Source: Xanthobacteraceae bacterium
GTDB taxonomy: Bacteria; Pseudomonadota; Alphaproteobacteria; Rhizobiales; Xanthobacteraceae
Assembly: GCA_030037105.1 (NCBI GenBank)
Contig: JASHRY010000247.1
Coordinates: forward strand, 1 to 24,211
DNA: 24,211 bases
Direction: 5' to 3'
Made by a program: the position numbers and the translations under genes. Positions 5,029 to 20,986 of the stretch are shown here, in pieces (within the stretch, counting starts at the first letter, position 1; every line of letters begins with the position of its first letter). Under the pieces are notes generated by a model. The model ran no database searches and had not been told where the DNA came from. It was given only the letters and a program-made list of their open reading frames with translations.

Positions 5029-5055
5029 TGCCGCTCTTTCGTTGCCGTTAGACCG

Positions 5056-5082
5056 TCGAGGCGCGCGTATCGCGCGCCTCGA
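5056..5082. repeat. Perfect 12-bp inverted repeat with 3-nt loop between binding-protein and ATPase genes
   Basis: Positions 5056-5067 (TCGAGGCGCGCG) pair perfectly with 5071-5082 around the loop TAT. It lies 13 bp past the binding-protein stop and about 27 bp before the ATPase start, read on the minus strand. No T-run follows on the minus strand, so it is not a standard intrinsic terminator. A stable hairpin here would protect the 3' end of the binding-protein mRNA or attenuate the downstream genes, as REP elements do in malE-malF. That role is inferred from position and shape. Confidence 0.6.
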
Positions 5083-5094
5083 TAGTCATCTCAT

Positions 5095-6120
5095 TTATTG
5101 GAACAGCGCGTCAAGCTGGTCTTCACTCAGCCAGGCGGCGAGGAAGTAGCCATTCGGCTTATCCTTCATCTTGGCCAACGTCGCGTCGAGATCCGCCGAA
5201 GTGACGAAGGTCGTGATCGGATAATAGTAGGTGTTGTTCTTCAGCGGCTTGAGCTTCTTGCCGGCCGCGATACGCACCGCAATACCGAGGGCGGTGCGGC
5301 TGATGTCAGGCGGGTTCACCTGGGCGAATATCTTGAGGTCCGGCTGCTTGACCAGAACCTTCTTCCATTCTTCCAGGAACGCCTTCTGCGTCTCGCCGGT
5401 CATGGTCGGAATCGGGCGGCCTGCGTTCTCGAATGCCCGCATGACGCCGAGCGCCATTGAATCCTCGACGAACACGCCGTCGATATGCGGCTGCGAGGCG
5501 AGCACCGTCGACATCGCCGCCTGAGCTTTCGCCTGATCCCACAAACCATATCCCTTCCAGACGATGTCCAGGCCGGGATCCTTGGCAAACGTATCGAGCG
5601 CGGCCTTACGCCGGGCTTCGGCCGCCGGGTGACCGGGGATGCCGTCCATGACGACGATCTTGCCCTTGCCATCGAGCGCCTTGGCGAGCCATTCCGCATA
5701 GCGCTTGCCCCAGGAATAGTGATCCACGGTCACGTTGATTGCGTAGGGGCTGGTCACTGCCTGGTCGAATGAGACGACCGGAATGTTGGCGCGATGTGCT
5801 TCGGCGAAGACGCCATTAAGCGCGGTCGCCGAATTGGCGTTCACCATGATGACCGAAACATGCTGCTGAATCATGTTCCGGATATCTTGAATTTGCTGAT
5901 TGGTGTCGGCGCCGGCCTGCTGCACGACGAGCTTGCCAGCCATTCCCTTCGATTTATAGAACTCGAACTGTTCCTTAGCGCCGTCGACCATCTGATTGCG
6001 CCACTCCGTGCCGAAATAGCCGTTCGACAGCCCGACGACGATCTTCGAGCCGTCTTCGGCGTAGGCCGACACGGACCATAGGGCGAGCGCTGCAACGCCA
6101 GCAGCAAAGAACTTGTTCAT
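5095..6120 (-). CDS. Periplasmic substrate-binding protein of a CUT2-type ABC importer
   Basis: This 341-aa secreted binding protein is first in the minus-strand importer operon. A signal peptide occupies residues 1-21 (hydrophobic core AAGVAALALWSVS, likely cleavage after AYA, before EDGSK). The mature part has the type I periplasmic-binding fold of the ribose/galactose family: an initial strand KIVVGLSN, the IIMVNANSATAL-like region near 90-100, and IPVVSFDQ near the hinge, where D119 resembles the sugar-contacting Asp of RbsB-like proteins. The start at 6120 is preceded on the minus strand by GGAGGA about 10 bp upstream. No sugar kinase, isomerase or aldolase lies nearby, so calling it a sugar-binding protein would be based on family alone. 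Confidence 0.9.
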   Translation of the reverse strand: MNKFFAAGVAALALWSVSAYAEDGSKIVVGLSNGYFGTEWRNQMVDGAKEQFEFYKSKGMAGKLVVQQAGADTNQQIQDIRNMIQQHVSVIMVNANSATALNGVFAEAHRANIPVVSFDQAVTSPYAINVTVDHYSWGKRYAEWLAKALDGKGKIVVMDGIPGHPAAEARRKAALDTFAKDPGLDIVWKGYGLWDQAKAQAAMSTVLASQPHIDGVFVEDSMALGVMRAFENAGRPIPTMTGETQKAFLEEWKKVLVKQPDLKIFAQVNPPDISRTALGIAVRIAAGKKLKPLKNNTYYYPITTFVTSADLDATLAKMKDKPNGYFLAAWLSEDQLDALFQ

Positions 6121-6412: not shown

Positions 6413-7426
6413 TTATGCCGCCGCCGGGGTGCCTTTCGACAGAAGCGCCGCCAGAATTTTCTCAGGAGTAAGCGGCAAGCTGTCAATGCGGACGCCGACG
6501 GCGTCGAAGATCGCGTTGGCAATGGCCGGAATCGGCGAATTCGCGCACATCTCGCCGAGGCCCTTGGCCCCGTAAGGACCGTCCGGTGCCGGCCGTTCGA
6601 TAACGCGGATCTCGATCTTGGGCAGATTACCGAGGCCGAGCATGAGATATTCGCTGAAGCCCGTGCCGCCGTGATCGCGATTGGGATAATAGGGCTCCGT
6701 GGTTTCGTAGAGCGCGTGGCTGATACCCATCCAAGCACCGCCCACTAGCTGCTGCTCGACCATCTTCGGATTTAACGCGCGGCCAACCTCGTACACGCTC
6801 TTGAGCGACAGCACGTCGACCTCGCCGGTTTCGGTGTCGACCTCGACCTCCGCGATCGTGCAGGCGTGGGCGTAGCAGGTCGAGGGTTTCATTGCTCCGT
6901 CCGCGGTCGAAGGATACGAGCGCGGTATGAAGAACATCCCGCGCCCGGAAATGGATCGGCCTTTTTCAAAGTGCGCGGCCAAAGCAACGTCGGTTACCGA
7001 GACCGCCATGGTTGGGGCGCCGGCGACGTGGATGCGCCCGGTGCCGTCCGTCACCAGGTCGCGCGGATCGACTTCGAGCATGTCGGCGGCGACCTCCATC
7101 ATCACCGCGCGCGCCTCCTTGGCGGCGGCGATCACGGCATTGCCGGCGCGATGCGTTCCGCGCGATGCGAATGTTCCCATGCAGTGCGGCCCGGTATCGG
7201 AATCCGCGGTATCGACAATGACGCGTTCGCTCGGCACACCCAGCGTCTCGGCGCAAATTTGTGCGATGATCGACTTCAATCCCTGGCCGAGATCGACGCT
7301 GGAAAGCGAGACGATGAAATTACCGGTCGGCGTGGAGTGAACCAGCGCTTGCGTCGGATCGCCGCCAAGATTCATGCCGGTTGGATAGTTGACTGCGGCG
7401 ACGCCGCGTCCGCGTTTCTTGGCCAC
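6413..7426 (-). CDS. Molybdopterin-binding subunit, C-terminal half (NdhM-like), of a split xanthine-dehydrogenase-family hydroxylase
   Basis: This 337-aa protein corresponds to the second half of the molybdopterin-binding domain of xanthine dehydrogenases. It holds the dithiolene-binding motif with GQG (47-49), the GRALNP segment near 215-220, and YGAKGLGE, in which Glu292 aligns with the invariant catalytic glutamate. A normal large subunit is about 750-800 aa. Here the first half is encoded separately just upstream, with three bases between the TAG and the GTG at 7426 and its own GGGGAGGA site. The split is therefore a designed gene boundary, not a frameshift. Sizes match the medium subunit (37 kDa) of nicotinate dehydrogenase from Eubacterium barkeri. 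The substrate is unknown; a nicotinate-like N-heterocycle is only a suggestion. Confidence 0.88.
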   Translation of the reverse strand: MAKKRGRGVAAVNYPTGMNLGGDPTQALVHSTPTGNFIVSLSSVDLGQGLKSIIAQICAETLGVPSERVIVDTADSDTGPHCMGTFASRGTHRAGNAVIAAAKEARAVMMEVAADMLEVDPRDLVTDGTGRIHVAGAPTMAVSVTDVALAAHFEKGRSISGRGMFFIPRSYPSTADGAMKPSTCYAHACTIAEVEVDTETGEVDVLSLKSVYEVGRALNPKMVEQQLVGGAWMGISHALYETTEPYYPNRDHGGTGFSEYLMLGLGNLPKIEIRVIERPAPDGPYGAKGLGEMCANSPIPAIANAIFDAVGVRIDSLPLTPEKILAALLSKGTPAAA

Positions 7427-7429
7427 GGC

Positions 7430-8797
7430 CTATCCTCCCCGGCGCGACGAAAGTTTGAGGAAGCGGGGATCGACCGGCCAATCGGCCCAGATTGACGCCT
7501 CCTGCATGCACTCGATCAACGCGGCTCCTTCCGTGAGCTGGCGATGCGCCTTCATGTCGCCGTCGCGATAAGCGTTGATGAAACGAAACTCCAGCGGGTC
7601 CATTCCGATATGGCGCGCGAGCTTATCCATCTGCACCTCGAGAGCAAAATCCCCGATGGTGACGCCGAATCCGCGCATGGCGCTTGAGGGCGTCCGGTTG
7701 GTGTAGACGCAGTAGCAATCGATCTCGACGTTGGGAATCGTGTACGGTCCGGGAAAATGCGCCGCCGCTTTCTGCGCGCCATAGGGCGAATGCCGCGAAT
7801 AGGCACCGGAATCGACATAGCAGCGGACCTGACGGGCCACGATCCGCCCGTCTTTCATCAAGCCGTCCTTGATGTAGATGCGCTCAGCTCCGCGCGGCGA
7901 AGAGATCTGCATCTCTTCGTAACGATTGTAGATGAAGGCGACGGGCCGGCCGGTGAGCATGGCGGCGAGCAGCGTGATCGGTTCGACCGTGCAGTCGACC
8001 TTGCCGCCGAAGCCGCCGCCCGCCGTCCCGCCGATGAAATGCAGGCGCTGGCCAGGTAGGTCGAGGATGATGGAGGCATTGTCGAGGGTGAAGAAGATCG
8101 CTTGCGTTCCGGTGTAGCAGATGAGACGGTTGTTCTGATCCGGCACCACGATGCAGCCCGTCGTCTCCGTGGGAGCATGCTCGATCGGACTGGAATCGTA
8201 ACGCTCCTCGAGGACGTAATCGGCTTCGCGGAAGCCGGCCTGCACGTCCCCAAGCTTCACCTTGCGGCTCGCGCCGCTGTCGTAGCGATAATAGTTTTGC
8301 CCGTGATATTCGTTGACCAGCGGTGCGTCGGGTTTCAACGCCTCCTCTACATCGAAGACTGCCGGCAGCTCCTCATAGTCGACCTGCACCAGAGCAGCCG
8401 CTTCGTAGGCGGTCCGCTCGCTGTCGGCGACGACGGCGGCAACGGGCTCGCCCAGCCAGCGCACCTTGTCGAACGCGAGCACCGGTTCGTCTTCCGGTCC
8501 GATATTGATGAGGCTCAGCACGGTGTAGACGTTGTGTGGAACGTCTTTTGCGGTCATGACCCGCTTGACGCCCGGATACCGCTGCGCCGCGCTGGTATCC
8601 ATCCGTAGGATACGCGCGTGATGGTGCGGACTACGGACCATGCGCAGATGGAGAAGCCCCGGCAGGCGCCGATCGGCATAGAATGGCGTGATGCCTCTGA
8701 CATGGCCGGAAGTATCGACACGCGGTCGTGATTGGCCGACCTCCTGAAAATCATCGGGGCGCTCGTCGGCGAAATAATTTTTGCATATTTTCATCAT
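7430..8797 (-). CDS. Molybdopterin-binding subunit, N-terminal half (NdhL-like), of a split xanthine-dehydrogenase-family hydroxylase
   Basis: This 455-aa protein contains the a/b-hammerhead domain (about residues 27-155) and the first half of the molybdopterin-binding domain. Visible motifs are GGGFGGK (260-266) and RGFG (375-378), both contacts to the molybdopterin cofactor in this family. It ends at SRRGG, just where the homologous large subunits continue. The missing half is the next gene. The ATG at 8797 overlaps the stop of the iron-sulfur subunit (ATGATGA), so the operon is translationally coupled. A 50-kDa plus 37-kDa pair is the arrangement described for nicotinate dehydrogenase of Eubacterium barkeri. 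The enzyme would act in the cytoplasm, hydroxylating its substrate with water-derived oxygen. Confidence 0.88.
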   Translation of the reverse strand: MMKICKNYFADERPDDFQEVGQSRPRVDTSGHVRGITPFYADRRLPGLLHLRMVRSPHHHARILRMDTSAAQRYPGVKRVMTAKDVPHNVYTVLSLINIGPEDEPVLAFDKVRWLGEPVAAVVADSERTAYEAAALVQVDYEELPAVFDVEEALKPDAPLVNEYHGQNYYRYDSGASRKVKLGDVQAGFREADYVLEERYDSSPIEHAPTETTGCIVVPDQNNRLICYTGTQAIFFTLDNASIILDLPGQRLHFIGGTAGGGFGGKVDCTVEPITLLAAMLTGRPVAFIYNRYEEMQISSPRGAERIYIKDGLMKDGRIVARQVRCYVDSGAYSRHSPYGAQKAAAHFPGPYTIPNVEIDCYCVYTNRTPSSAMRGFGVTIGDFALEVQMDKLARHIGMDPLEFRFINAYRDGDMKAHRQLTEGAALIECMQEASIWADWPVDPRFLKLSSRRGG

Positions 8798-9294
8798 GCC
8801 GCTCCCCGCTTCCCGGTGTCGCCCGGAGTGCCGCTGCGGGAAGCGGCGAGGATGGCTCTGATGATGGGCTCATAGCCGGTGCATCGGCAGATGTTCCCGC
8901 TGAGTGCATCTTCCACCTCGCGCCGATCGGGATGCGGGTTTGCATCAAGCAGCGCCTTCGCCGCCATAAGCATGCCTGGCGTGCAGAAGCCGCATTGGGC
9001 CGCGAAGTGGTCGAGCAGGGCTTGCTGCAACGGATGTAATTCGCCGTTGGGCGAGAGTCCCACGACCGTTTCGACTGACGTGCTGCAACAGTCCTCGACC
9101 AGCGTAATGCAGGCGAGGCGAGGCTCGCCGTCGACCAGCACCGTGCAGGTGCCGCATGTTCCCTGGAGACAGCCGCCCTTGACGCTGAGGTCGCCGATCT
9201 TGTCGCGCAGGAACTTGAGGAGAGTCATTCCGCTGTCGGCGAACTCCGCCCGCTCTTCGCCGTTCAAAATCATTTGCACCGGTACTTTCGTCAT
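8794..9294 (-). CDS. [2Fe-2S] iron-sulfur subunit of the split molybdenum hydroxylase
   Basis: This 166-aa electron-transfer subunit has the two cluster domains of the xanthine dehydrogenase small subunit. The N-terminal plant-ferredoxin-type cluster uses Cys42, Cys47, Cys50 and Cys62. The C-terminal helical domain has CGFC (Cys101, Cys104) and CRC (Cys136, Cys138), with Q100 just before, the residue that contacts molybdopterin. No cluster ligand is missing. Length is typical (about 155-175 aa). There is an extra CC pair (69-70) that is not a ligand. Electrons would pass from Mo through these clusters to the FAD subunit encoded just upstream. Confidence 0.94.
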   Translation of the reverse strand: MTKVPVQMILNGEERAEFADSGMTLLKFLRDKIGDLSVKGGCLQGTCGTCTVLVDGEPRLACITLVEDCCSTSVETVVGLSPNGELHPLQQALLDHFAAQCGFCTPGMLMAAKALLDANPHPDRREVEDALSGNICRCTGYEPIIRAILAASRSGTPGDTGKRGAA

Positions 9295-9321: not shown

Positions 9322-10134
9322 TCAGGTCGAGAGCAATCGGCGCAAATGAACCGGGAGCACGGTCTCGCGGTACCATTCGCTTGCAATCGCATCCGACGCC
9401 GGCGATACATCCGCGGTGGCCGAGGCGACCGCTCGCCCGATCTCATGCGGCGCAGAAGACGCTCCCTTGAGAGCCTGTTCCAAATTGTGCGCCCGCACCG
9501 GCGTTTTTGCCATCGCGCCGAGGGCAACTCGCGCCGTCGAAATGCGGCCTTTCATTGTTGCAAGCACCGCCGCCATCGACAGCACGGCAGCGCCATTCGG
9601 CTTGACACGGGTGACTTTGACGAAGCGAAAATCGTCCGGTGCCGGGCGCGGGAAGCGCACCGCCGTGACAATAGATCCGGCGGCGAGCCGCGCGCGCGAC
9701 TTGAAGAACGCTTCTAGGTCGAGTTCGCTGAGCCCGTCAGGAGTTTCGATTGCCACGACCGCATCGAGCGCAAGCAGCGCGACACCGAAATCGCCATAGG
9801 GGCACGGCGCGAAAAGATTCCCACCAACCGTCGCGGCCGACCGCACGGCCGGCCCGCCGATCGACCTGGCAACCGGAGCGATAAATGCAAGGGCCGGAAC
9901 CTTGGCAATGGCCGACATGGTCACGCCGGCGCCAAGGTGGATCATTTCGCCGGACGTATTGATTTGCCTGAAATGCGGTGCAAGCAGGCGAACATAAGTG
10001 CTTATCGAGATGTCGCCTTCGTTGACGCGCCGCACCAGCAGCGTTCCGCCGCCCAAAAGATGCGCTTCCCGCCGCTCGGCCAAGAAACGTGACGCGGCCT
10101 GCACATCGTCAAAACTTTGATAAGCGAGCGTCAT
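9322..10134 (-). CDS. FAD-binding subunit of the split molybdenum hydroxylase (CoxM/NdhF-type)
   Basis: This 270-aa protein of the PCMH-type FAD-binding family passes electrons from the iron-sulfur subunit to an acceptor. Motifs are LLGGGTLL (26-33; AGGTDL is usual) and the segment from IGGPAVRS to PYGD (92-115), which carries the TVGGN loop that wraps the flavin. I chose the ATG at 10134, with AGGG seven bases upstream. The frame is open further, to 10305, but the added stretch is arginine-rich, matches nothing in the family and enters the regulator's promoter. It is the first gene of the operon FAD, FeS, Mo-large, Mo-medium, and is divergent from the AraC regulator. It is slightly shorter than the usual 285-290 aa. 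Confidence 0.87.
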   Translation of the reverse strand: MTLAYQSFDDVQAASRFLAERREAHLLGGGTLLVRRVNEGDISISTYVRLLAPHFRQINTSGEMIHLGAGVTMSAIAKVPALAFIAPVARSIGGPAVRSAATVGGNLFAPCPYGDFGVALLALDAVVAIETPDGLSELDLEAFFKSRARLAAGSIVTAVRFPRPAPDDFRFVKVTRVKPNGAAVLSMAAVLATMKGRISTARVALGAMAKTPVRAHNLEQALKGASSAPHEIGRAVASATADVSPASDAIASEWYRETVLPVHLRRLLST

Positions 10135-10304
10135 CGGTTGCCCTATTGCCGCCGACCATGAGCGCGGTCTCCGCCGCAGATACCGCATGGGCCGGGACCA
10201 GAGCCCCGGTACCGCAGCTCGTAAGGCAAGCGTAGCGAGGGCGTGGTCGGCGCGCTTATCAATCCATCTAATTTTGCCGGGGCCTGGGAGCCCAAAAGGC
10301 CACA

Positions 10305-10333
10305 TTGACGACGCTCGCGGGCGGATTTCTAAT
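10305..10333 (+). promoter_or_regulatory. Sigma70-like promoter of the AraC-type regulator gene
   Basis: A -35 element TTGACG (10305-10310) and a -10 element TCTAAT (10328-10333) are separated by exactly 17 bp, and each matches consensus at five of six positions. The predicted start lies near 10340, leaving a leader of about 58 nt before the regulator's ATG at 10399. This is the best promoter match I found in the window. Confidence 0.6.
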
Positions 10334-10351: not shown

Positions 10352-10398
10352 GACGCCGGATGCGGCGTCGCAGAAGCCGTGGTTTCGGGTGGAAACCA

Positions 10399-11241
10399 AT
10401 GTCGAAGATATTGCGGCTTCACCACGGTTCGTTCGGTCACGTCACCGTCCTCGAACTGACGACCGAACTTGTGACCCACGCCCATTCGAGCGCAAATGTG
10501 AGCTTTTGGTTGCGGGGAGCCCCGGCGCATGTCCTGATCGACGGGACGCCGGTCGGCCACGACGCACGGAAGGCCGCGATAATCGATCGCTTCGTGCCGC
10601 ATTGCCTGAAAATCGAGGCCGGCTCGGGCGCGGCGCAAAGCCTATCATTCTATCTTGACCCGGACTGGCTGTCGCGGATGTTGCCGCCGCATTTGCCCAA
10701 GAGCTTCGCTCATCTCGACGTCGCCATATCGACCTCCTTGCGGGAAGAGCTGTGGACCCTGCGAGATATGCTGCTCGACGACACGAGCGACGAAGTCGAG
10801 CTTGATTGCGCGCTCATTGCTTTCCTCAGGCGGGCGTTGCTAGTGTCCCGAGAGGTGGCGACCGCGGATGCAAGGCGCGACCATAGCGCACGCGATTTCC
10901 GGATCCGCAAGGCGTTGGCGCTGATGCGCAGCAATATGGCGCGGAATCTCGACATGGAAATGGTGGCCCGCGAGTCCGGCCTGTCCCGCCCGCACTTTTT
11001 TTCGATGTTCCGCGACGAACTCGGACTTACGCCGAGCATATTCTGGAACTCGCTGCGGCTGGAAGAGGCGATGCAGCAGATGAGCAGCTCGCAAGCAAGC
11101 CTAACTTCGGTTGCCAGCCGCCTTGGATTCGATGCGCAATGCAACTTCACCCGCTTCTTCCGTCAGCACACCGGCGTGGCTCCGAGCGAATATCGCCATG
11201 CGCTGATGCGGTATGCCGATGGGCCGGCGGCGCGGGCCTGA
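10399..11241 (+). CDS. AraC-family transcriptional regulator
   Basis: This 280-aa regulator has a cupin-like N-terminal sensing domain (THAHSSANVSFWLRG near 26-40) and a C-terminal double helix-turn-helix AraC domain (about 168-267). The first helix-turn-helix spans about 184-205 and the second 234-257, followed by the family's P-x-x-Y-R ending (APSEYR). I start at the ATG at 10399, preceded by GGTGGA at good spacing and downstream of the predicted transcription start. An in-frame ATG at 10360 adds 13 arginine-rich residues. It lies between the two hydroxylase clusters, divergent from one and upstream of the other, so it probably controls both. An inducer, perhaps the pathway substrate, would bind the N-terminal domain. 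Confidence 0.9.
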   Translation: MSKILRLHHGSFGHVTVLELTTELVTHAHSSANVSFWLRGAPAHVLIDGTPVGHDARKAAIIDRFVPHCLKIEAGSGAAQSLSFYLDPDWLSRMLPPHLPKSFAHLDVAISTSLREELWTLRDMLLDDTSDEVELDCALIAFLRRALLVSREVATADARRDHSARDFRIRKALALMRSNMARNLDMEMVARESGLSRPHFFSMFRDELGLTPSIFWNSLRLEEAMQQMSSSQASLTSVASRLGFDAQCNFTRFFRQHTGVAPSEYRHALMRYADGPAARA

Positions 11242-11365: not shown

Positions 11366-12052
11366 GTGAGGATCGTGGATTTGAGCCGGGAACTCTACCA
11401 CCGCACGCCGGCTTATCCGGGCCAACCGCCTATTATCCACGGCGTGTGGAAGACGCACGAGGAAGCGTTCATCGATTCCGGCAATATACAGGGCAACGCA
11501 GTGATGTACTTCTCGATGCCGGACCACGGCGGCACCCACATCGACGCCCCGCGCCATTTCGGTAAGAGCGGTACGCCGATCGACGAATATCCGCTGGAGA
11601 ATTGCATCGTCAAAGGCATCTGTATCGACCTGCGTCACAGTCCGCCGCGTGCGGAGATCACCCCGGCCGATCTCGAGGCAGCGGTGAGCAAGGCCGGCGT
11701 GCCAATCCCGAAAAAGGGCACTGTGCTGCTCTGCACTGGTCATCATGCGCGCACGTTCCCGACGCCGGCCTACGCAACGGACAATCCCGGCGTCAACGTC
11801 GCGGCCACCGAATGGCTGGCGCGACAGGGCATCGTGCATTTCGGCATAGACGCCATGCGGCCGGGGCCGGAAGGGAGAATAAACTCGCTGGTGCACAAAG
11901 CCTGTCTTGAACTCGACATCACGCACATGGAGAGCCTGTGCAATCTCGAGGCCCTGCTTGGTCAGGGCGAGTTTCAGTTCATCGGTTTGCCGCTCAAGTG
12001 GCGTGGGGGTACCGCTTCGCCGATCCGTGCGGTGGCCGTGTTCAACGATTGA
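11366..12052 (+). CDS. Cyclase-family metal-dependent hydrolase (kynurenine formamidase/isatin hydrolase fold)
   Basis: This 228-aa protein belongs to the cyclase family (PF04199), whose members include kynurenine formamidase KynB and isatin hydrolase. The defining motif HGGTHIDAPRHF lies at 54-65 and supplies His and Asp metal ligands; HHARTF further on fits the family's second metal-site region. Members open amide or lactam bonds with Zn or Mn in the cytoplasm. The GTG start at 11366 follows AAGGAGGAG with five bases spacing, a very strong site. It is the first gene of the plus-strand catabolic operon, beside two Mo hydroxylases that typically oxidise N-heterocycles, so opening of a hydroxylated ring is a reasonable inferred role. 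It lacks other kynurenine-pathway neighbours. Confidence 0.88.
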   Translation: MRIVDLSRELYHRTPAYPGQPPIIHGVWKTHEEAFIDSGNIQGNAVMYFSMPDHGGTHIDAPRHFGKSGTPIDEYPLENCIVKGICIDLRHSPPRAEITPADLEAAVSKAGVPIPKKGTVLLCTGHHARTFPTPAYATDNPGVNVAATEWLARQGIVHFGIDAMRPGPEGRINSLVHKACLELDITHMESLCNLEALLGQGEFQFIGLPLKWRGGTASPIRAVAVFND

Positions 12053-12128
12053 TGCCTTGTTCGGATGTCGAAGGGATAACGAGTAGACCGCGGCGACATA
12101 AAATAACTAAGCCTTACACGAGAGACAC

Positions 12129-12983
12129 ATGGGACATCGATACACGCGGGAGGAGGTTGCCACGCGGCTGCGCGCCACCATCGCAGCGGGCCGGCCGATC
12201 ATGGTCGCCGGAGCCGGAAACGGGCTTTCAGCAAAATGTGAAGAGCTTGGCGGAATCGATCTAATCGTTGTCTTCAACAGCGGCAAATTTCGCACCGATG
12301 GCTTGCCGTCCATTTGCAGCTTGATGCCATACGGAAATGCTAACGAAATCGTGCTGGATCTCGGCGGGAATCATGTGCTTCCCGCGGTGAAGAAAACGCC
12401 CGTGATCGCCGGCGTCTGCGGTACCGACCCGACGCGCAATATGCACAAGTTCCTTGAGCAGCTTCGCGAGGTGGGATTTTCCGGCGTCATCAACTATCCG
12501 ACCGTATCGCGGTTCGATGGCGATATTCGCCGGGACTTCGAATCGGTCGGCTTGGGCTTCGCCCGCGAAGTCGAAATGATCGCCGCGGCTCGGGAAGTCG
12601 GCCTCTACAGCGGCTGCTATGTCTGCACCGCCGAGGAATGCGTCCAGATGGCCGAGGCGGGCGTCGACATGATCGTTCCTCATATAGGATTGACCAGCGG
12701 CGGGACGATCGGCTCGAAGAAAGCCATGTCGCTCGACGAGGCGGTAAAGGCGACGCAGGAGCTGATCGATGCGGCGCGCACCGTGAAAGCGGACGTGATC
12801 GCCTTGGCGCACGGCGGACCGATGGAGAGCCCGCAAGATGTCGCTTATGTGCTTCAACGCACCACGGCGCAGGGTTTCGTCGGGGCGTCGAGCATGGAGC
12901 GGTTGCCGGTCGAGACCGCTATCGTTAGCACGGTAAAAGCGTTCAAACAGCTGTCGCTGCCGGGAAGCAAATATCGCGGCTGA
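12129..12983 (+). CDS. TIM-barrel 'phosphoenolpyruvate hydrolase' family protein
   Basis: This 284-aa protein resembles the TIM-barrel family annotated as phosphoenolpyruvate hydrolase or TIM-barrel signal transduction protein (PF09370), related to the C-terminal part of plant Tm-1-like proteins. Conserved-looking stretches at barrel strand ends are VAGAGNGLSAK (26-36), the FNSGKFR strand (49-55), VCGTDP (96-101), GVINYPTV (119-126), the HIGLTSGGTIG segment (185-195) and AHGGP (227-231). These look like phosphate-binding glycine loops. No member has a firm biochemical role that I can cite. It precedes genes resembling PEP-synthase modules, and the PEP-binding barrel missing from those could be supplied by this protein; that is inference. 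Only a weak ribosome site (GAGAG) precedes the ATG. Confidence 0.82.
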   Translation: MGHRYTREEVATRLRATIAAGRPIMVAGAGNGLSAKCEELGGIDLIVVFNSGKFRTDGLPSICSLMPYGNANEIVLDLGGNHVLPAVKKTPVIAGVCGTDPTRNMHKFLEQLREVGFSGVINYPTVSRFDGDIRRDFESVGLGFAREVEMIAAAREVGLYSGCYVCTAEECVQMAEAGVDMIVPHIGLTSGGTIGSKKAMSLDEAVKATQELIDAARTVKADVIALAHGGPMESPQDVAYVLQRTTAQGFVGASSMERLPVETAIVSTVKAFKQLSLPGSKYRG

Positions 12984-13048
12984 TTTCGAGAAGAGCGGTC
13001 GGACTCGCGGTCGCGGCGGCCTTTGCGCCGGCGGCCGCGCAAGAGTGA
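12980..13048 (+). pseudogene. Possible signal-peptide remnant of a lost secreted or binding protein gene
   Basis: Directly after the TIM-barrel gene, the +2 frame reads ISRRAVGLAVAAAFAPAAAQE and then stops at TGA (13046-13048). The pattern of two arginines, a hydrophobic alanine-rich core and AAAQE is a typical alphaproteobacterial signal peptide with its cleavage site, but there is no ATG and no mature protein. It could be the surviving N-terminus of a deleted substrate-binding protein gene, or chance in GC-rich DNA. Confidence 0.2.
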
Positions 13049-13187
13049 AAATGCGATCCAACGGACGAAGCTCGATGGTCGATCATTCGGTCGCGCTTGC
13101 AGATGTTTTCCCTGTTCAATAATCTTCGATTGGCGACACGACCGTTCAATGAAGAACGCTCGGGAATGCCGAGGCGGGGAAACGAGC
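12984..13187. other. Intergenic region before the phosphohistidine-domain gene
   Basis: This 204-bp gap inside the operon holds the possible signal-peptide remnant and little else. An AT-richer patch at about 13097-13125 (TTGCAG, then AATAAT or TAATCT) gives no good -35/-10 spacing, so an internal promoter is not supported. No terminator hairpin with a T-run was seen, so read-through from the upstream genes is likely. Confidence 0.4.
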
Positions 13188-14957
13188 ATGAAGGCCACCT
13201 TCTTTGGCGACGAAGAATTCCCCATCGAGTGGGAGGAAGGGCAGAAGGAGCTGTTCTGGGTCTACGACGATTTGCACATCCCGAACCCGGTTTCCCCGAT
13301 GTATGCGGACATCGGCGGCTGGTGGTTGAGCTGCGACTACATGTTCCGCCGGTTCGGCACTCCGTTCGCCTGCGACTGGCTGGTCAAGGTCATCAACGGA
13401 TACGTGTACACCGCCGCCATTCCGGCGAAACCCGACATTCGCGCGATCGGTTCCGAGTACGGATCGCACTATATGGCGCGCACGCCGGTCGATGCCGGAT
13501 ACTCGGCGCAAATCGGCGCCTACCTTGGCTGGACGCTCCCCTGTTACGCCGACAAGTTCCTCGACTGGTGGCGCGAGCGATTCCGTCCGGAAATGGAGCG
13601 CAACTTTCTCCGTTTCGACACCTATGATTATGACGGCGCGAGCCTGCTTGATCTGGCGATTCTTCTCGAGGACGTCATCGACGTCCACGACCGGCACTGG
13701 AAAATTCACTGGCAGCTCAATTTTTCGCAATTCTCCGCCACCATGGCCCTCAACGGGGCAATCGCCGCTATCAAGGGCGAGAGCGGGTCCCGGGAACTCA
13801 TGGGGCGCTTGCAAGCCTCGACCGAGAACCGCAACTGGGATTCGATCAGAGGGCTGTGGGTGATGAAGGAGTTCGTCAAGGCGGACCGCGGAGACGTCGC
13901 CAAGGCGTTTGCCAAGCCGACCGCCGCCGACGCGCTCGCAGCCCTAAGGCAGAGCGCGGCCGGGCGGGCGTTCATTGCCGATCGGATCGATCCCTATCTG
14001 AACGTATTCGGCTGGAAATCCATGTGGGCGCACGAATTCTCCTTCAAGACCTGGAAGGAGAACCCGGCCGCGGCCATCGAGGCGATTCGCGGCTACCTCG
14101 AGACCGACTACGACTTCAATGCCGAGATCGGGCGGGTGGCGCGCGATCTCGAAGCGGCCAAGAAGGAAGTCATGGAAGGGGTTCCTCCCGGTGAAGACCG
14201 CGACCAGCTTGCGCGCGCGCTGGAGCTCAGCCTGAAAATGAACCCGCTCACGCCGGACCATCACTTCTACATCGACCAGGGGACCAACGCCCGTGTTCGC
14301 CTGGTCCTGATCGCCATTGGCAAGAAGTTGGCCGCCCAGGGCGTGCTGCTCGATGCCGAAGACGTCATGTATCTGCGCTACAATGAATTGCGCGCCGTAA
14401 TGGCAGGCAGCTTCCCCGGCGACGTGCAGGAGTTGGTTTCCGACCGCCGCGACCAGCGCGAAGACGCTTACAAGCTTCGCCCACGCGATTGGGTGGGGAC
14501 CGCTACTGACGAAGCGCTCGCTTTCCCTTATCTGACCAACTGGGGCTTTCCTGAGAAATTCCACCGTAAGCGCGCCGAGATCGAGAGTGTCATTAACGGA
14601 CTGCCGGCGTCGAGCGGCATTGTCGAGGGAACAGCGAGAGTGCTGCTATCCGCAGATGAATTCGAGAAAGTTCAGAAGGGAGACATCGCGGTCTGCCGCA
14701 TGACTAGCCCGGCCTGGGTCGTCCTCTTTACCCGTATCGGCGGCCTGGTGACGGATGCCGGCGGAATGGCTTCTCATCCGGCCGTTGCCTCTCGTGAGTT
14801 CGCCATTCCGGCCGTCGTCGGCACTTCCGATGCGACGCGGCGTATCAAGACCGGTGACCGGATTCGGGTGAACGGCTCAACCGGGCAGGTGGATATCCTC
14901 GCCGACAGCGGAACGCCGGCGCGGAAGGCTGGCCAAGGATCGCTCCTGCACAGCTGA
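13188..14957 (+). CDS. PEP-utilising enzyme with C-terminal phosphohistidine swivel domain (phenylphosphate synthase alpha-like)
   Basis: This 589-aa protein ends in the mobile phosphohistidine domain of PEP synthase/PPDK-type enzymes (about 480-580). The motif TDAGGMASH is at 522-530 and His530 is the predicted phospho-carrier, followed by REFAIPAVVG. The first 470 residues are not a PEP-binding barrel; they open with EEFPIEWEEG and a Trp/Tyr-rich region (LFWVYDDLHIPNPVSPMY). I recall a similar opening in large PEP-utilising proteins of unassigned substrate. Phenylphosphate synthase of Thauera aromatica has the same plan: a 70-kDa subunit with a conserved His and a separate ATP-binding subunit. 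I start at the ATG at 13188 behind GGGGAAA; the frame extends upstream without a convincing site. The likely role is transfer of a phosphoryl group from His530 to a small organic acceptor. Confidence 0.85.
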   Translation: MKATFFGDEEFPIEWEEGQKELFWVYDDLHIPNPVSPMYADIGGWWLSCDYMFRRFGTPFACDWLVKVINGYVYTAAIPAKPDIRAIGSEYGSHYMARTPVDAGYSAQIGAYLGWTLPCYADKFLDWWRERFRPEMERNFLRFDTYDYDGASLLDLAILLEDVIDVHDRHWKIHWQLNFSQFSATMALNGAIAAIKGESGSRELMGRLQASTENRNWDSIRGLWVMKEFVKADRGDVAKAFAKPTAADALAALRQSAAGRAFIADRIDPYLNVFGWKSMWAHEFSFKTWKENPAAAIEAIRGYLETDYDFNAEIGRVARDLEAAKKEVMEGVPPGEDRDQLARALELSLKMNPLTPDHHFYIDQGTNARVRLVLIAIGKKLAAQGVLLDAEDVMYLRYNELRAVMAGSFPGDVQELVSDRRDQREDAYKLRPRDWVGTATDEALAFPYLTNWGFPEKFHRKRAEIESVINGLPASSGIVEGTARVLLSADEFEKVQKGDIAVCRMTSPAWVVLFTRIGGLVTDAGGMASHPAVASREFAIPAVVGTSDATRRIKTGDRIRVNGSTGQVDILADSGTPARKAGQGSLLHS

Positions 14958-14972
14958 TTGGAATGGCAAGAA

Positions 14973-15797
14973 ATGACCAACTCGCACCTTGTGCTCTCAT
15001 TCGGCGACCCCCGGTGCCGCGCGGTGGGCCTCAGTGGAGGAAAGGGCGCGAGCCTCGCGGCCATGATGCAGGAGGGTATGCCGGTCCCTCCTGGGTTCGT
15101 CGTAACCTCGACGGCGTTTGTCGCGGGGGTTGACGAGGCACGGCTGCACGAATGCTGTCGTGCCGGCGACATGTCTGGCGCTCGACGGATCGTCGCGGCC
15201 GCGAAGCCTCCGGCGGCCATGGTTGCCGAGCACTATGCTGTGCTCTGCGGCCCTGTCGCGGTGCGATCGTCGGCCTGCGCAGAAGATTCCGAGGCGGCGA
15301 GCTATGCCGGCCAGCAGGCGACCTATCTTAATGTCAATGGACTTTCCGCCGTCCTTGAAAAAATCGTCGAGTGCTGGCTGTCGTTCTTCTCCGACCGCGC
15401 GATCTTCTATCGCGCCGAGAAGGGCTCCATGGACGACATCGCCATGGCCGTCATCGTCCAGCAGATGATCGATTCGAAGAAATCCGGTGTGCTTTTCACC
15501 ATTGACCCGGTGCACGGCCGCAAAGACCGGATCGTCGTCGAAGCAACATTCGGTCTCGGCGAGAACGTTGTCGATGGCGGGCATACGCCCGACCACTACG
15601 CATTGGATCGCAAAGGGACGATCAAGCGCAGCAACATCGTCGGCACGCAGGTCCTCAACGAGAGCGAGTTGAAGCGACTGGCGGAGATGGGGCGGAAGCT
15701 CGAGGAGATGCACGGCTGTCCGCAGGATATCGAATGGACGTTCGACCAGAACGGCGACCTTTTCTTCCTGCAGTCCCGCCCAATCACCACTATCTAA
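14973..15797 (+). CDS. PEP/pyruvate-binding ATP-grasp protein (PEP synthase N-terminal domain alone; phenylphosphate synthase beta-like)
   Basis: This 274-aa protein is the ATP-grasp domain (PPDK_N) of PEP synthase as a free-standing polypeptide. Motifs are VGLSGGKGASLA (18-29), VAVRSSACAEDS (95-106), the metal/ATP strand SGVLFTIDP (171-179) and the terminal IEWTF with LQSRPIT (253-272). It would phosphorylate His530 of the preceding protein, using ATP and releasing AMP and phosphate. Canonical domains are about 330-350 aa; here the helical insert between the first and second motifs (about 50-93) is shortened. I chose the ATG at 14973; a TTG at 14958, directly after the upstream stop, would add five residues. 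The gap to its partner is 15 bp, so the two are clearly co-translated. Confidence 0.88.
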   Translation: MTNSHLVLSFGDPRCRAVGLSGGKGASLAAMMQEGMPVPPGFVVTSTAFVAGVDEARLHECCRAGDMSGARRIVAAAKPPAAMVAEHYAVLCGPVAVRSSACAEDSEAASYAGQQATYLNVNGLSAVLEKIVECWLSFFSDRAIFYRAEKGSMDDIAMAVIVQQMIDSKKSGVLFTIDPVHGRKDRIVVEATFGLGENVVDGGHTPDHYALDRKGTIKRSNIVGTQVLNESELKRLAEMGRKLEEMHGCPQDIEWTFDQNGDLFFLQSRPITTI

Positions 15798-15861
15798 AAA
15801 CCGCCTACGCTTGACTCTGCTGGCGGGTCCGGCGCAAACCAACCGAAGGCATGGAACAAAG

Positions 15862-16731
15862 GTGCCACCGCTTCGCTACGTAAGACCGACCGGACTTCAG
15901 GAGGCGATCGCATTCCTTCAGGAAGACGGCGCCGCTGCCGTGTTGCTCGCGGGCGGCACCGACCTGGTCGTGGGACTGCGCAACGGCACCGTCACTCCAC
16001 GCGTGATCGTTGACGTGAAGCGCACCAAAGACCTGCCGCCGGTCATTGCCAAAGCGGATCGCTTCCTCACAATCAGCGCGACGGTGGCAATGCGCGATGT
16101 CGAGAAGAACGAGATCGTGCGTGCGCACTTTCCGGCGCTGGCCGAGGCCGCGGCCGTAGTGGGCTCCATCCAAATTCGCAATCGCGCCACCTTGGTCGGG
16201 AATGTCTGCAATGCTTCTCCGGCCGCGGACACCGTCCCGGTCCTGGCGGTGTATGGCGCGCTGGTGAAGGTGCTTGGCCCGCGCGGCGAGCGGTTCGTCC
16301 CGGTCGTCGATTTCATACAGGGCAACAGGCGCATCGCGCTTGCTTCCGGCGAGATTGCCACCGCTTTGCACATTCCGTTCCCGGATCGGCCCTTCGGCGC
16401 CGCGTTTGCCCGAATTACCCGGCGGCGCGGCGTTGATTTGGCCACCGTGAATCTTTGTTGCGGCATCGACGATGACGGCGTGACGACATTTGCATTCGGC
16501 GCAGTGTCGCCGCGGCCCCTGCTGTTGAGCGACACCGACGGCGTACTCGCCGATCCGTCCGCGCGAGCCGAGGCCAAGGCGATCGCGCTCGACGCAATGA
16601 TCGCGAGTGCCTCTCCCATCACCGACGTGCGTGGGAGCGCGGAATATCGCCTGGCGATGCTCGGCGTGTTGGCAAAGCGCGCGCAACGCTGCGCTGCCGC
16701 AAGACTTGCAAACGGAAGGACGCATGGTTGA
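15862..16731 (+). CDS. FAD-binding subunit of a second molybdenum hydroxylase
   Basis: This 289-aa PCMH-type FAD-binding subunit has LLAGGTDLV (28-36) and IQIRNRATLVGN followed by NASPAAD (103-123), the two flavin loops of the xanthine dehydrogenase/CO dehydrogenase medium subunit. I start at the GTG at 15862, which gives the usual family N-terminus (PLRYVRPTGLQEA) and length. A TTG at 15811 would add 17 unrelated residues and has no ribosome site. It follows the ATP-grasp gene after 64 bp and overlaps the next subunit by eight bases. It is closer to the family consensus than the FAD subunit at 9322-10134, so the two hydroxylases are not recent duplicates. Confidence 0.92.
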   Translation: MPPLRYVRPTGLQEAIAFLQEDGAAAVLLAGGTDLVVGLRNGTVTPRVIVDVKRTKDLPPVIAKADRFLTISATVAMRDVEKNEIVRAHFPALAEAAAVVGSIQIRNRATLVGNVCNASPAADTVPVLAVYGALVKVLGPRGERFVPVVDFIQGNRRIALASGEIATALHIPFPDRPFGAAFARITRRRGVDLATVNLCCGIDDDGVTTFAFGAVSPRPLLLSDTDGVLADPSARAEAKAIALDAMIASASPITDVRGSAEYRLAMLGVLAKRAQRCAAARLANGRTHG

Positions 16732-19537
16732 CGCGCGTACAGTCAACATAACTGTCAATGAGCGCCGCCATTCGTTGACTGTTGGTTCGAACACCATGTT
16801 GCTGGACCTGCTCCGCGACACCTTGCGGCTGTGCGGTCCGAAAGAATGCTGCAGCGTGGGCGAGTGCGGTGCTTGCACGGTGTCCGTGAACGGCCGCACT
16901 GTAAACTCATGCCTCATGCTGGCCGTGGAAGCGGACGGCGCCGAAATCGTCACCATCGAGGGGCTCGGCAATGGCGGGCTAGACCCGCTGCAACAGGCCT
17001 TCATCGATGAAGGTGCGGTGCAATGCGGGTTTTGCATCCCGGGCATGCTGATGTCGGCCCAGGCGATACTCGACGAAGACGCCGATCCTGGCGAAGAGAA
17101 GATTCGCGAGGGCCTGTCAGGCAATCTTTGCCGCTGCGGCGGCTACAATCGGATCGTCAAGGCTGTCCGCTCGGCGGCGAAAGCCGGCGCAAGCGGCGCG
17201 CGCGCGAAAAAGTTCGCCGGCAGCGATGGCAGGCGCAGCCCCCATCCGTCTGACGATGTGGTCAGACGCGATGGAAGAAACGCCAGAACCTGGGTCGGTG
17301 CTGATGTCGGGCGTTTCGGCGGCCGGGAACGGGTGACCGGGCTGCAGCAGTTCCTTGCAGACATTTCTCTTAAAGACATGCTTTACGTTAAACTTGTCAC
17401 TCTCGACGTGGCTCGAGCGCGTATCATCTCTATCGATACTGCCGCGGCTTATGCTCTGCCCGGTGTGGTCGACGTCATAACCGCTGACGATTTACCGAAG
17501 CCGATGCCGCGGTTCGGGCCGGTCTACAAGGACAGGCCGATCCTCGCCGCAGGCGAAACAAAATACCACGGCGAGCCGGTAGCGGCCGTGGCGGCGGAGG
17601 CGAAAGAGACGGCGGAACTGGCGGTTTCGCTGGTGCGTGTCGAATACGAGACGTTACCTGCTGTTTTCTCGGTGGCGGGAGCGCTGGCGCCGGACGCGCC
17701 GTTGGTGCAGGAGCCGGCGCTGCGCGCCGGCGATCCGCTGGCCGGCACCAACATCCTGAAAGAGCGGCGATTCGGCTGGGGCGACGTTGCCGCCGGGCGT
17801 GCAGATCTTGTCGTTGAGAATTCCTATTCATTCCCGATGGTCACGCATTTCGCGATCGAGCCTCACGGCTTTATTTCCTGGGCCGACAAAGACGGTTTGA
17901 AAATTTGGAGTCCGGTCCAGCATCCGTTCCTGCTGCAGAGGATCATGGCGGAACTCTTCGATCTGCCTTTGACGCAGGTGCGCGTGTTTGCTCCGGACCC
18001 GGGCGGTGGTTTCGGCGGCAAGCAGAATCCCAAGCTCGAGCCCCTGGTGACGCACCTGTCGCTGCGCACCGGCCGTCCTTGCCGGCTGGTGCTCAGCTTG
18101 GAGCAGACGTTCCAGGCGGTTCGGCGCGCGGCGGCGGAGATTCACGTCCGTACCGGCTTCACGCGATCCGGCGATCTGCTCTTTCAGGATGTCAAGTCCG
18201 ACTTTCTGATCGGAGCCTACGCCGACATTGCCGAACGGGTCATGACCAAGTCGAACTACCTGGCTTGCGGCCCATATCGGACCCCCAACGCGAGAATTCA
18301 TGCGCGGGCGATTCTCTCGCACACGACGCCGAGCTGCGCGTTTCGCGGCTTCGGCGCACCGCAAATTGCTTGGGCGGTGGAGTCGCAGATGGATGCAGCC
18401 GCCCGCGAGCTCGGCCTCGACGGATTGCAGATCCGCATGCGCAACCTTGCGGGCAAGGGCGACGAAATCGTGCGCGGCGACGTCCCGGCGGACGGCGACT
18501 GGCCGGAATCGGTGCGGCGCGCCGCGGAAGCGATTGGCTGGAACGCCCCGCTTGCTTCGGGGCGTGGTCGCGGCATCGCCGTCGGCATCAAATCGGGCGC
18601 CACGCAAGGTCTGTCCAACGCGATAGTGCGGCTGCTCGCCGACGGCAGCGTCATCATCTATGCCGGAACGTCTGACATGGGACAGGGGGCGCGGACGATC
18701 TTTGCTCAGCTCGCGGCGGACGAGCTTGGCGCGCCATTGGCGAAAGTATCGGTGGTGATGGGGGACACTTCAGTCGTGCCCTTCGATCTGCAAACATCTG
18801 CAAGCCGATCGACGGTTTTCATGGGCACCGCCATCTTTCGCGCATGCGAGGATATCCGCGAGCAACTGCGCGAGATGGCCGCCGAACTGCTCGGGCTTGC
18901 CAAGACCGATGTGCGTGTGGCCGGCGGCATGGTCGAACTTCCGCACCGGACGGTGTCGATTGCCGAATTTATTGCGGGCAAGCTTGGCGGCTGGAACGGC
19001 GAACTGATCGGCCGCGGCCGCATGCGAAAACCGGTCGTGCCCGACCATCCGCTGGGCGGGACGGCGGCCTTTTTTGAGTTCAACTGCACCGCGTTTGAGG
19101 TCGAGGTGGACGCTGACACCGGCGAAATTCTCATCCACAAGCACGTCACCGTCGGCGACGTCGGCAAGGCGCTCAACCCGCTCCAGGTGGAAGCGCAGGA
19201 TGAGGGCGCAGCCATTATGGGGCTCGGTCACAGCCTTATGGAACATATCATTCTTGATGACGAGGGACGCATCCGCAATCTTGGCGCGTTGGACTATCGG
19301 ATCCCGACGACCAAAGATGTGCCGCTGGCGCTGAAGGCGCTGAGCGTTGAGAACGAGGACGGCCCGGGGCCGTACGGATCAAAAGGAGTGAGCGAGGGTG
19401 CGTTGCTCTGCACGGCCCCGGCGCTTGCTGCGGCTGTGACCCAGGCGACCGGCGTCGTCATCAGGGATCTGCCGCTGACGCCGGAGCGCGTGTGGAGGGC
19501 CATACAGGGGAGTCGGCGAGCGAAGAGCAGTCCGTAG
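16724..19537 (+). CDS. Fused [2Fe-2S]-molybdopterin subunit of a second molybdenum hydroxylase
   Basis: This 937-aa fusion joins the iron-sulfur subunit (about 1-155) to a complete molybdopterin subunit (about 195-937), the arrangement of Desulfovibrio aldehyde oxidoreductase. Cluster ligands are Cys43, Cys48, Cys51 and Cys63, and then Cys101, Cys104, Cys136 and Cys138. The Mo part has GGGFGGK (427-433), RGFG (541-544), GQG (653-655) and GSKGVSE with catalytic Glu891. The linker at 156-195 is Ala/Arg-rich and polar. The start at ATG 16724 follows GGAAGGA and overlaps the FAD gene; an upstream extension to 16607 is a shadow of that gene. The substrate is unknown, and purines, N-heterocycles and aldehydes are all possible for the family. 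Confidence 0.93.
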   Translation: MVDARTVNITVNERRHSLTVGSNTMLLDLLRDTLRLCGPKECCSVGECGACTVSVNGRTVNSCLMLAVEADGAEIVTIEGLGNGGLDPLQQAFIDEGAVQCGFCIPGMLMSAQAILDEDADPGEEKIREGLSGNLCRCGGYNRIVKAVRSAAKAGASGARAKKFAGSDGRRSPHPSDDVVRRDGRNARTWVGADVGRFGGRERVTGLQQFLADISLKDMLYVKLVTLDVARARIISIDTAAAYALPGVVDVITADDLPKPMPRFGPVYKDRPILAAGETKYHGEPVAAVAAEAKETAELAVSLVRVEYETLPAVFSVAGALAPDAPLVQEPALRAGDPLAGTNILKERRFGWGDVAAGRADLVVENSYSFPMVTHFAIEPHGFISWADKDGLKIWSPVQHPFLLQRIMAELFDLPLTQVRVFAPDPGGGFGGKQNPKLEPLVTHLSLRTGRPCRLVLSLEQTFQAVRRAAAEIHVRTGFTRSGDLLFQDVKSDFLIGAYADIAERVMTKSNYLACGPYRTPNARIHARAILSHTTPSCAFRGFGAPQIAWAVESQMDAAARELGLDGLQIRMRNLAGKGDEIVRGDVPADGDWPESVRRAAEAIGWNAPLASGRGRGIAVGIKSGATQGLSNAIVRLLADGSVIIYAGTSDMGQGARTIFAQLAADELGAPLAKVSVVMGDTSVVPFDLQTSASRSTVFMGTAIFRACEDIREQLREMAAELLGLAKTDVRVAGGMVELPHRTVSIAEFIAGKLGGWNGELIGRGRMRKPVVPDHPLGGTAAFFEFNCTAFEVEVDADTGEILIHKHVTVGDVGKALNPLQVEAQDEGAAIMGLGHSLMEHIILDDEGRIRNLGALDYRIPTTKDVPLALKALSVENEDGPGPYGSKGVSEGALLCTAPALAAAVTQATGVVIRDLPLTPERVWRAIQGSRRAKSSP

Positions 19538-19741: not shown

Positions 19742-20986
19742 GTGAAAGATGATGCATCAATCGCCCAGCTGCGACTCGGGCTGATCGGCAGCGGATTCAT
19801 AGCCAATTTTCACCTCCAGGCGCTGGTCGCGGTCCGCCACGTCACTGTCGCGGGTGTGTATAGTCCGACCGCTGCGCATCGTGAGGCGCTGGCCGTCACG
19901 GCCAATGCGCTGGAGCTCGGTCCTTGCCGGCCGTTCCCCTCGCTGGAGGCCATGCTGGTCTCCGGCGCGATCGACGCCGTTTGGATCACCGTGCCGAACT
20001 TTGCCCGCCTCGACACGATGCGGGAGATCAACCATCTGGTGAAATCGGGACGGGCGAAGATTGTCGGCGTGGCCTGCGAAAAGCCCCTGGCGCGCACGCT
20101 CGCCGAAGCACGGGAAATGCTGCGGCTTGCCGAGGACGCCGCCCTTCTCCACGGCTATCTGGAGAACCAGGTGTTCTCCAGCGCGGTCCAACGCGGCAAG
20201 GACATTGTCTGGCGTCGGGCCGTCCCGATCAGCGGCCGGCCTTATCTGGCCCGCGCGGCCGAAGAGCATAGCGGCCCGCACATGCCCTGGTTCTGGCAAG
20301 CCCGGCAGCAAGGCGGCGGTGTTCTTTCCGACATGACCTGTCACAGCGTTGAGGTCGGGCGTTTCCTGCTGACCAAACCCGACGCGCCGCGCGACGACCT
20401 CAAGCTCGTCAGCGCCAGCGCCACGGTGGGTAATCTGAAATGGACGCGGCCGAAATATGTGGCGAAGCTCAAGCGCATGATGGGGATGGAAGTCGACTAC
20501 GGCAAACGGCCGGCGGAGGATTTCGCCCGTGGCGCGCTGGTCTTCCGCGATTCCGAGGGGCATGAAGTCATGGTAGAGGCAACCAATTCCTGGGCCTATG
20601 TCGGCGCCGGACTGCGCATTCTGATCGAGCTCCTCGGCCCCGAATATTCGATGGAGTTCAGTTCTCTGAGCACAGGGCTAAAGGTATTTTTCTCGCGCGA
20701 CGTGACCGGCGGCCAAGGTGAGGATTTGGTTGAGAAGCAGAATGCCGAGCAAGGCTTGATGCCAGTAGTCGAAAACGAGCCGGACATTTACGGCTATATC
20801 GGCGAGGACCGCCACATGGTCGATGCATTTCGTCACCGCCGCCGTCCGCTGGAGACTTTCGAGAACGGTGTAGCGGTAGCTGAAATGCTGATGGCACTCT
20901 ATCGTTCGGCAGAAATAGGCCGAGTCATCACCTTGCCGGCGCCAGAATTGGAGACCTACGTACCGTTCATTGCCCGGGCACAGTAA
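19742..20986 (+). CDS. Gfo/Idh/MocA-family NAD(P)-dependent oxidoreductase
   Basis: This 414-aa dehydrogenase has the N-terminal Rossmann fold GLIGSGFIAN (13-22) and the family signature CEKPLA (112-117), with the catalytic-type Lys in EKP. The C-terminal domain holds GGGVLSDMTCHSVE, matching the G-x-x-x-D-x-x-x-H region of the family with a likely catalytic His. Members usually oxidise or reduce sugar and cyclitol hydroxyls, or reduce imines and pyrrole-type rings (biliverdin reductase). The GTG at 19742 follows GGAGGGAGG. It is longer than the usual 330-390 aa. It is the last gene of the catabolic operon before tRNA-Gln. Membership in the same pathway is inferred from orientation, since a 204-bp gap precedes it. 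Confidence 0.9.
   Translation: MKDDASIAQLRLGLIGSGFIANFHLQALVAVRHVTVAGVYSPTAAHREALAVTANALELGPCRPFPSLEAMLVSGAIDAVWITVPNFARLDTMREINHLVKSGRAKIVGVACEKPLARTLAEAREMLRLAEDAALLHGYLENQVFSSAVQRGKDIVWRRAVPISGRPYLARAAEEHSGPHMPWFWQARQQGGGVLSDMTCHSVEVGRFLLTKPDAPRDDLKLVSASATVGNLKWTRPKYVAKLKRMMGMEVDYGKRPAEDFARGALVFRDSEGHEVMVEATNSWAYVGAGLRILIELLGPEYSMEFSSLSTGLKVFFSRDVTGGQGEDLVEKQNAEQGLMPVVENEPDIYGYIGEDRHMVDAFRHRRRPLETFENGVAVAEMLMALYRSAEIGRVITLPAPELETYVPFIARAQ

Follow-up and report, generated by a model that had tools for sequence, protein, structure and literature searches.

Two adjacent genes of a Xanthobacteraceae bacterium (assembly GCA_030037105.1, contig JASHRY010000247.1) encode a split phosphotransferase which, in the reading we favour with moderate confidence, is an ATP-dependent dikinase acting on small molecules, made of two components and belonging to a new subfamily, and performs a 'charge-and-mask' step ahead of a molybdenum hydroxylase. 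The genes occupy positions 13188..15797 of the 24,211-nucleotide stretch analysed, hereafter the window. The first encodes a 589-residue protein (K589, or alpha), the second an ATP-grasp protein (beta). The enzyme pair is real and conserved, not a chance occurrence: it has a two-part make-up, a predicted fold, conserved catalytic residues and a conserved linkage to its neighbours. Judged by its sequence, it appears to form a new branch within an enzyme class that was described recently, and to be set within a molybdenum-hydroxylase pathway. A separate branch of this kind would mark an uncharted catabolic route. No paper on this gene cluster was found in the open-licence literature, which mostly excludes subscription papers.

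It was in 2025 that two-part small-molecule dikinases were defined as a subfamily; the substrates described were of phenol type (PMC12167813). In one of them, HpeHI, an ATP-grasp protein works with an acceptor/swivel protein resembling the rifampin phosphotransferase RPH; AMP is formed and activity is lost once the swivel histidine is replaced (PMC12167813). The dikinase chemistry of the window pair would follow that of these relatives.

The two components and the acceptor site

Both open reading frames (ORFs) lie where the original prediction had placed them, along with the histidine that it named:

13188..14957, plus strand: alpha component (K589); acceptor-binding domain about 1-465, phosphohistidine swivel about 466-572
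14256..14279, plus strand: acceptor-site motif DHHFYIDQ, residues 357-364, at the alignment position of RPH Arg666-Glu667-x-x-Lys670
14775..14777, plus strand: codon of His530, predicted to carry the phosphate, in the motif TDAGGMASH (residues 522-530)
14958..15797, plus strand: beta component, a compact ATP-grasp protein (PPDK_N by Pfam); likely start ATG 14973

The alpha frame opens with ATG and has GGGGA upstream. Its sole Pfam match is the mobile domain PF00391 (residues 496-566, 6.5e-23), and TDAGGMASH is its version of TxxGGxxxH. The original prediction had described about 470 residues ahead of this domain as unassigned, which is true of the Pfam copy used, but residues 1-470 have the fold of the RPH acceptor domain. 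Residues 8-465 track RPH, not PPDK, the chain terminates just past the swivel, and K589 as a whole matches the fold of the rifampin-binding and swivel domains of RPH. The beta frame opens with TTG and encodes 279 residues; its first ATG, at 14973 and 15 bp past the preceding stop, is probably the translation start. As anticipated, beta is an ATP-grasp protein only, with PPDK_N as sole Pfam match (4.4e-72), and the alignment shows the Lys, Arg, Thr and Glu of the ATP site retained. No Pfam match to the phosphoenolpyruvate (PEP)/pyruvate barrel was found in either ORF, which agrees with the earlier view that this is not a PEP synthase; of K589, the swivel alone matches pyruvate phosphate-transfer enzymes. 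Separate ATP-grasp and acceptor-plus-swivel proteins encoded together, the plan that had been likened to phenylphosphate synthase, are the architecture of two-component dikinases, and the swivel motif expected of these, T/SxxGGxxxH, is present in K589.

Homologues of K589 numbered 4354 at E <= 1e-3 among 7996 candidates scored, 120 of which were listed. A relative is encoded in 175 genomic stretches; the best 80, at 53-74% identity, were retained, giving 82 records with the window and Thermomicrobium roseum. An alignment of 60 sequences was made from the window, 18 of the 120 listed database hits and 41 of the 80 loci. In it His530 is invariant, as are H358, H359, D363 and Q364 of the acceptor site. 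The motif DHHFYIDQ recurs in 79 of the 82 locus sequences and in 116 of the 120 listed homologues. In RPH, transfer to rifampin depends critically on Arg666 and Glu667, and Lys670 belongs to the same network (PMC4844700); two alignments place H359, F360 and D363 of K589 at these positions. References on the side of the profile NF006153 carry xH[KN]FYxEH at the same site in 12 of 14 cases, L083 and L094 being the non-matching ones. The motif suggests that the acceptor hydroxyl is activated or positioned in a different way, one apparently common to the phenolic kinases, with His358 as a candidate activating residue.

Three further observations concern the components. Beta is compact, with 279 residues vs 323 in T. 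roseum: about 25 residues are absent after TPDHY and the remainder mostly from the N-terminal lobe. A newer precomputed Pfam domain, PF27448, is assigned to the 120 listed homologues; the Pfam copy searched gave no such match in K589. One locus encodes a second swivel protein (L005:4446-5870), 30% identical to that of the window; the main one lies about 4 kb further downstream.

Molybdenum hydroxylases and the proposed reaction

Gene calls in the 80 loci came from a home-made GC-weighted script, and neighbour counts were therefore taken from tblastn against the DNA; 19 representatives of the gene clusters found were scanned with Pfam. The large subunit of a molybdenum hydroxylase occurs in 55 of the 80 loci, and in 41 of the 47 with a length of 15 kb or more. 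Chance would give 1.75 in 80, from 99 domain matches in 71.3 Mb, a rough density since the 15 host genomes behind it were hand-picked (13 with and two without a molybdenum hydroxylase at the locus) and since domain matches are counted, a few being two pieces of one gene. Other recurrent neighbours among the 82 records are GntR (67), SDR (31), ABM (28), metallo-beta-lactamase (27), FAA (24) and histidine phosphatase (22). That relatives, from soil bacteria and thermophiles, so often neighbour molybdenum enzymes points to a breakdown pathway.

In the window, six co-directional genes span 11366-19537, and an AraC-family regulator, which may control the cluster, sits between this run and a minus-strand block upstream. 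The prediction of molybdenum-hydroxylase and cyclase-type neighbours was borne out by a Pfam scan of the 20 of 81 listed ORFs taken for genes. Outside the kinase pair the features are:

1668..6120, minus strand: ABC importer with two permeases, ATPase and Peripla_BP_4 binding protein (PF02653 twice, PF00005, PF13407); it may take up the pathway substrate
6413..7426, minus strand: second molybdenum hydroxylase, split large subunit, second half, 337 residues (PF20256)
7430..8797, minus strand: second molybdenum hydroxylase, split large subunit, first half, 455 residues (PF02738, PF01315)
8794..9294, minus strand: second molybdenum hydroxylase, [2Fe-2S] subunit (PF01799)
9322..10305, minus strand: second molybdenum hydroxylase, flavin adenine dinucleotide (FAD) subunit (PF00941, PF03450)
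10360..11241, plus strand: AraC-family regulator (PF12833, PF00165)
11366..12052, plus strand: cyclase-family metal hydrolase, ring-opening candidate (PF04199)
12129..12983, plus strand: PEP-hydrolase-like TIM barrel (PF09370, 4.8e-108)
15811..16731, plus strand: molybdenum hydroxylase FAD subunit, CoxM type (PF00941, PF03450)
16607..19537, plus strand: fused [2Fe-2S] and molybdopterin subunits, CoxS-CoxL (PF01799, PF00111, PF01315, PF02738, PF20256); start perhaps about 16724
19742..20986, plus strand: GFO/IDH/MocA oxidoreductase, downstream (PF01408, PF22725); uncertain as a pathway member

A cluster of similar content is found in T. roseum DSM 5159, a named and cultured organism whose alpha and beta genes (TRD_RS09590 and TRD_RS09615) offer a means of finding the substrate, the phosphorylated intermediate and the oxidation chemistry. 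By RefSeq annotation the run comprises a Liv-type importer, Tm-1-like, PEP-hydrolase-like, GntR, cyclase, ATP-grasp and hypothetical proteins, then the FAD subunit, FAA hydrolase, ABM, K589, and the molybdenum and 2Fe-2S subunits.

Under the proposed mechanism the 279-residue protein would present ATP and His530 of the swivel would accept the beta-phosphate, with release of AMP and phosphate; the swivel would then travel to K589's own RPH-like acceptor domain and phosphorylate a hydroxyl of a small substrate. The adjacent molybdenum hydroxylase would oxidise this phosphorylated substrate, dephosphorylation would come next (by the histidine phosphatase in relatives), and hydrolytic opening by the cyclase, FAA hydrolase and ABM protein might complete the route. 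This order, deduced from gene content, is modelled on the Hpe pattern of kinase, carboxylase and phosphatase, in which the carboxylase takes only phosphorylated compounds (PMC9618137). From gene content, the acceptor is fairly probably a hydroxylated aromatic or N-heterocycle and, as a lesser possibility, an enol or polyol. Matches of the window cyclase in the PDB include kynurenine formamidase and isatin hydrolase, and its family is described as including isatin hydrolase and dihydrophloroglucinol cyclohydrolase, the latter opening a carbocycle by retro-Claisen cleavage (PMC10470551).

Several points weigh against this proposal. No molybdenum hydroxylase was found in six of the 47 loci of at least 15 kb (L004, L006, L007, L008, L009 and L013), kinship among the 80 loci makes their counts non-independent, and the molybdenum hydroxylase was the only neighbour compared with chance, GntR, SDR, ABM, metallo-beta-lactamase, FAA and histidine phosphatase being given as counts. 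FAA, ABM, GntR and the phosphatase have no match in the window, which is possibly cut short, and neither do SDR and metallo-beta-lactamase; the histidine phosphatase also has none in the T. roseum cluster. Identity between the window cyclase and the cyclase most often found in the clusters is only about 31%. At about 24% identity to the characterised types, the class of acceptor is unreadable from kinship. The molybdenum hydroxylases, finally, fall into different subfamilies across loci, an observation which also favours a functional tie over mere shared descent of a block.

The original prediction of a hydroxylated-ring acceptor is plausible in the light of the acceptor motif, the molybdenum hydroxylase and the ring-opening type of neighbours. 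It has one serious competitor, possible if rather unlikely: the dikinase would act on a non-aromatic acceptor, such as an enol, lactone or polyol hydroxyl, and the molybdenum hydroxylase would be an aldehyde or aldose oxidase. The Peripla_BP_4 binding protein of the importer and the GFO/IDH/MocA protein speak for this, as do transaldolase-like (26 of 82) and IolE-like (5 of 82) neighbours of relatives and the only NCBIfam match of the T. roseum ABM protein at E <= 1e-5, to an LsrG-type isomerase (29.6 bits vs a cut-off of 135). The C21 hydroxyl of rifampin, moreover, is aliphatic. RPH phosphorylates that hydroxyl (PMC4844700). On the opposite side stand the acceptor motif, which is like that of the phenolic kinases, and the occurrence of ring-opening enzymes in the cyclase and FAA families. 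Kinship of individual neighbours was uninformative on the substrate: the best PDB matches of the molybdenum large subunit are mixed, aldehyde oxidoreductase (313.9 bits) and 4-hydroxybenzoyl-CoA reductase (308.0 bits) scoring almost equally, and the FAA, ABM and cyclase families are too generic.

Some features of the neighbouring genes are recorded here for themselves. The large subunit of the second molybdenum hydroxylase (6413-8797) is split into 455 and 337 residues; in L002, too, the frame for the first half has only 468 residues, and PDB nicotinate dehydrogenase 3hrd (425 and 330 residues) is split like the window protein. Among 33 frames retrieved with a motif search, only the one at 16607-19537 has CoxS and CoxL fused. 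The few named relatives of the window cyclase come from Bradyrhizobium, Hyphomicrobiaceae and a Nitrospinota bacterium, a hint of a Hyphomicrobiales host, whereas the few named kinase relatives among the listed homologues are actinobacterial.

Relationship to known kinases

Phenylphosphate synthase membership was tried and rejected: K589 is colinear over its full length with the profile NF006153 and scores 180 bits against a cut-off of 578. The identity table and tree were made without six sequences shorter than 480 residues as extracted (the L005 paralogue, L083, L085, L087, L093 and L094), and the tree was built from 34 of the remaining sequences. The window and its relatives form their own clade (100/99), apart from an NF006153-type clade (100/100); long branches make the placement of RPH and PigC uncertain. 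K589 shares 23.6-26.0% identity with the eight NF006153-matching sequences aligned. These share 45-56% with the alpha protein of L097, a Hpe-type operon of Rhizobium leguminosarum with biotin carboxylase genes, a HAD hydrolase and a coenzyme A ligase, placed on the NF006153 side by gene context, identity and tree without NF006153 scoring; L097 alpha is 24% identical to that of the window. L094 scores 459 bits, below the cut-off.

Three two-component systems are close in plan. With PpsAB of Thauera aromatica the pair shares the split plan and presumably the chemistry. It differs in clade, as judged by proxy sequences rather than PpsA itself, and in having no CBS-domain or UbiD protein among the 20 window ORFs scanned with Pfam. 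HpeHI, the hydroxyphenylethanone dikinase of Rhodococcus rhodochrous GD02, is described as having two components, the same alpha/beta division, an RPH-like alpha, T/SxxGGxxxH and a catabolic cluster, as here (PMC12167813, PMC9618137). The window alpha lies outside the NF006153 clade, HpeH being represented in this comparison by the Hpe-type operon L097; Hpe neighbours are a biotin carboxylase and a HAD phosphatase whereas those of the window are molybdenum hydroxylases, and the Hpe-type beta of L097 has 354 residues vs 279. CreHI, the 4-methylbenzyl phosphate synthase of Corynebacterium glutamicum, is likewise a two-component kinase that starts a catabolic route (PMC12167813). HpeH, CreH and PpsA are reported to be about 45% identical to one another (PMC12167813). 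C. glutamicum was the one control genome above the NF006153 cut-off, which would put CreH within NF006153. The oxidising partner in the CreHI route is a P450, not a molybdenum hydroxylase.

It is thus improbable that the pair is phenylphosphate synthase, or a close phenol or alkylphenol kinase, in a reshuffled locus. The split plan and colinearity would fit, but the profile score, tree and identities do not, and T. roseum has both a K589-type and an NF006153-type kinase, each in its own cluster. The missing CBS and UbiD proteins, which the original prediction had noted correctly for these ORFs, fail as a separator: HpeHI and CreHI kinase activity is described as requiring two components (PMC12167813), and their absence therefore does not set the window apart from known phenolic kinases. 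The pair likely works in the same way as phenylphosphate synthase without being a member.

A detoxifying antibiotic phosphotransferase like RPH is a still more remote candidate. The fold is identical in type, but RPH is a single chain with an N-terminal ATP-grasp domain and a role in antibiotic resistance, whereas the window has two ORFs, lacks the catalytic Arg666, Glu667 and Lys670, and lies in a conserved neighbourhood of catabolic type. The prodigiosin ligases PigC and RedH have homologous ATP-grasp, central and swivel regions; they differ in being single-chain, biosynthetic and in a separate clade, with about 24% identity between K589 and a Pseudoalteromonas PigC-type protein. A split PEP synthase or PPDK, to which the ATP-grasp and swivel families would point, is negligible given the unmatched barrel and the RPH-like course of residues 8-465.

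In T. roseum, the NF006153-type alpha and beta genes (L082:1-14647) lie near another molybdenum hydroxylase, a sugar-type ABC importer and biotin-dependent carboxyltransferase genes, making a second kinase and molybdenum-hydroxylase neighbourhood, of a different type.

A form with a PEPCK-fold protein

In a branch consisting mainly of Chloroflexota the locus has no ATP-grasp partner; a protein of PEPCK/HPr-kinase fold is usually present instead, often with a barrel-less PPDK-like protein. We tentatively raise the doubtful but attractive idea of a subfamily with interchangeable phosphoryl donors, in which the swivel could be charged by either a P-loop kinase (ATP to ADP) or an ATP-grasp dikinase (ATP to AMP). 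If so, one swivel-histidine enzyme family would be chargeable by unrelated kinase folds, and the window would hold the ATP-grasp form of a family with two energetically different ATP entry points beside molybdenum-dependent hydroxylation.

The PEPCK-fold protein (L063:9195-10079 and 25 other loci) has about 295 residues, no Pfam match, a predicted PEPCK/HPr kinase fold and the Walker-A-like sequence GGESNHGKS. Its gene is directly downstream of alpha in 24 of the 26 loci, and no record was found to contain both it and the ATP-grasp partner. The PPDK-like protein of L061 (2917-5088, minus strand) combines ATP-grasp and swivel, has no pyruvate-barrel match and carries about 250 unassigned C-terminal residues, a part found in 18 of the 82 records.
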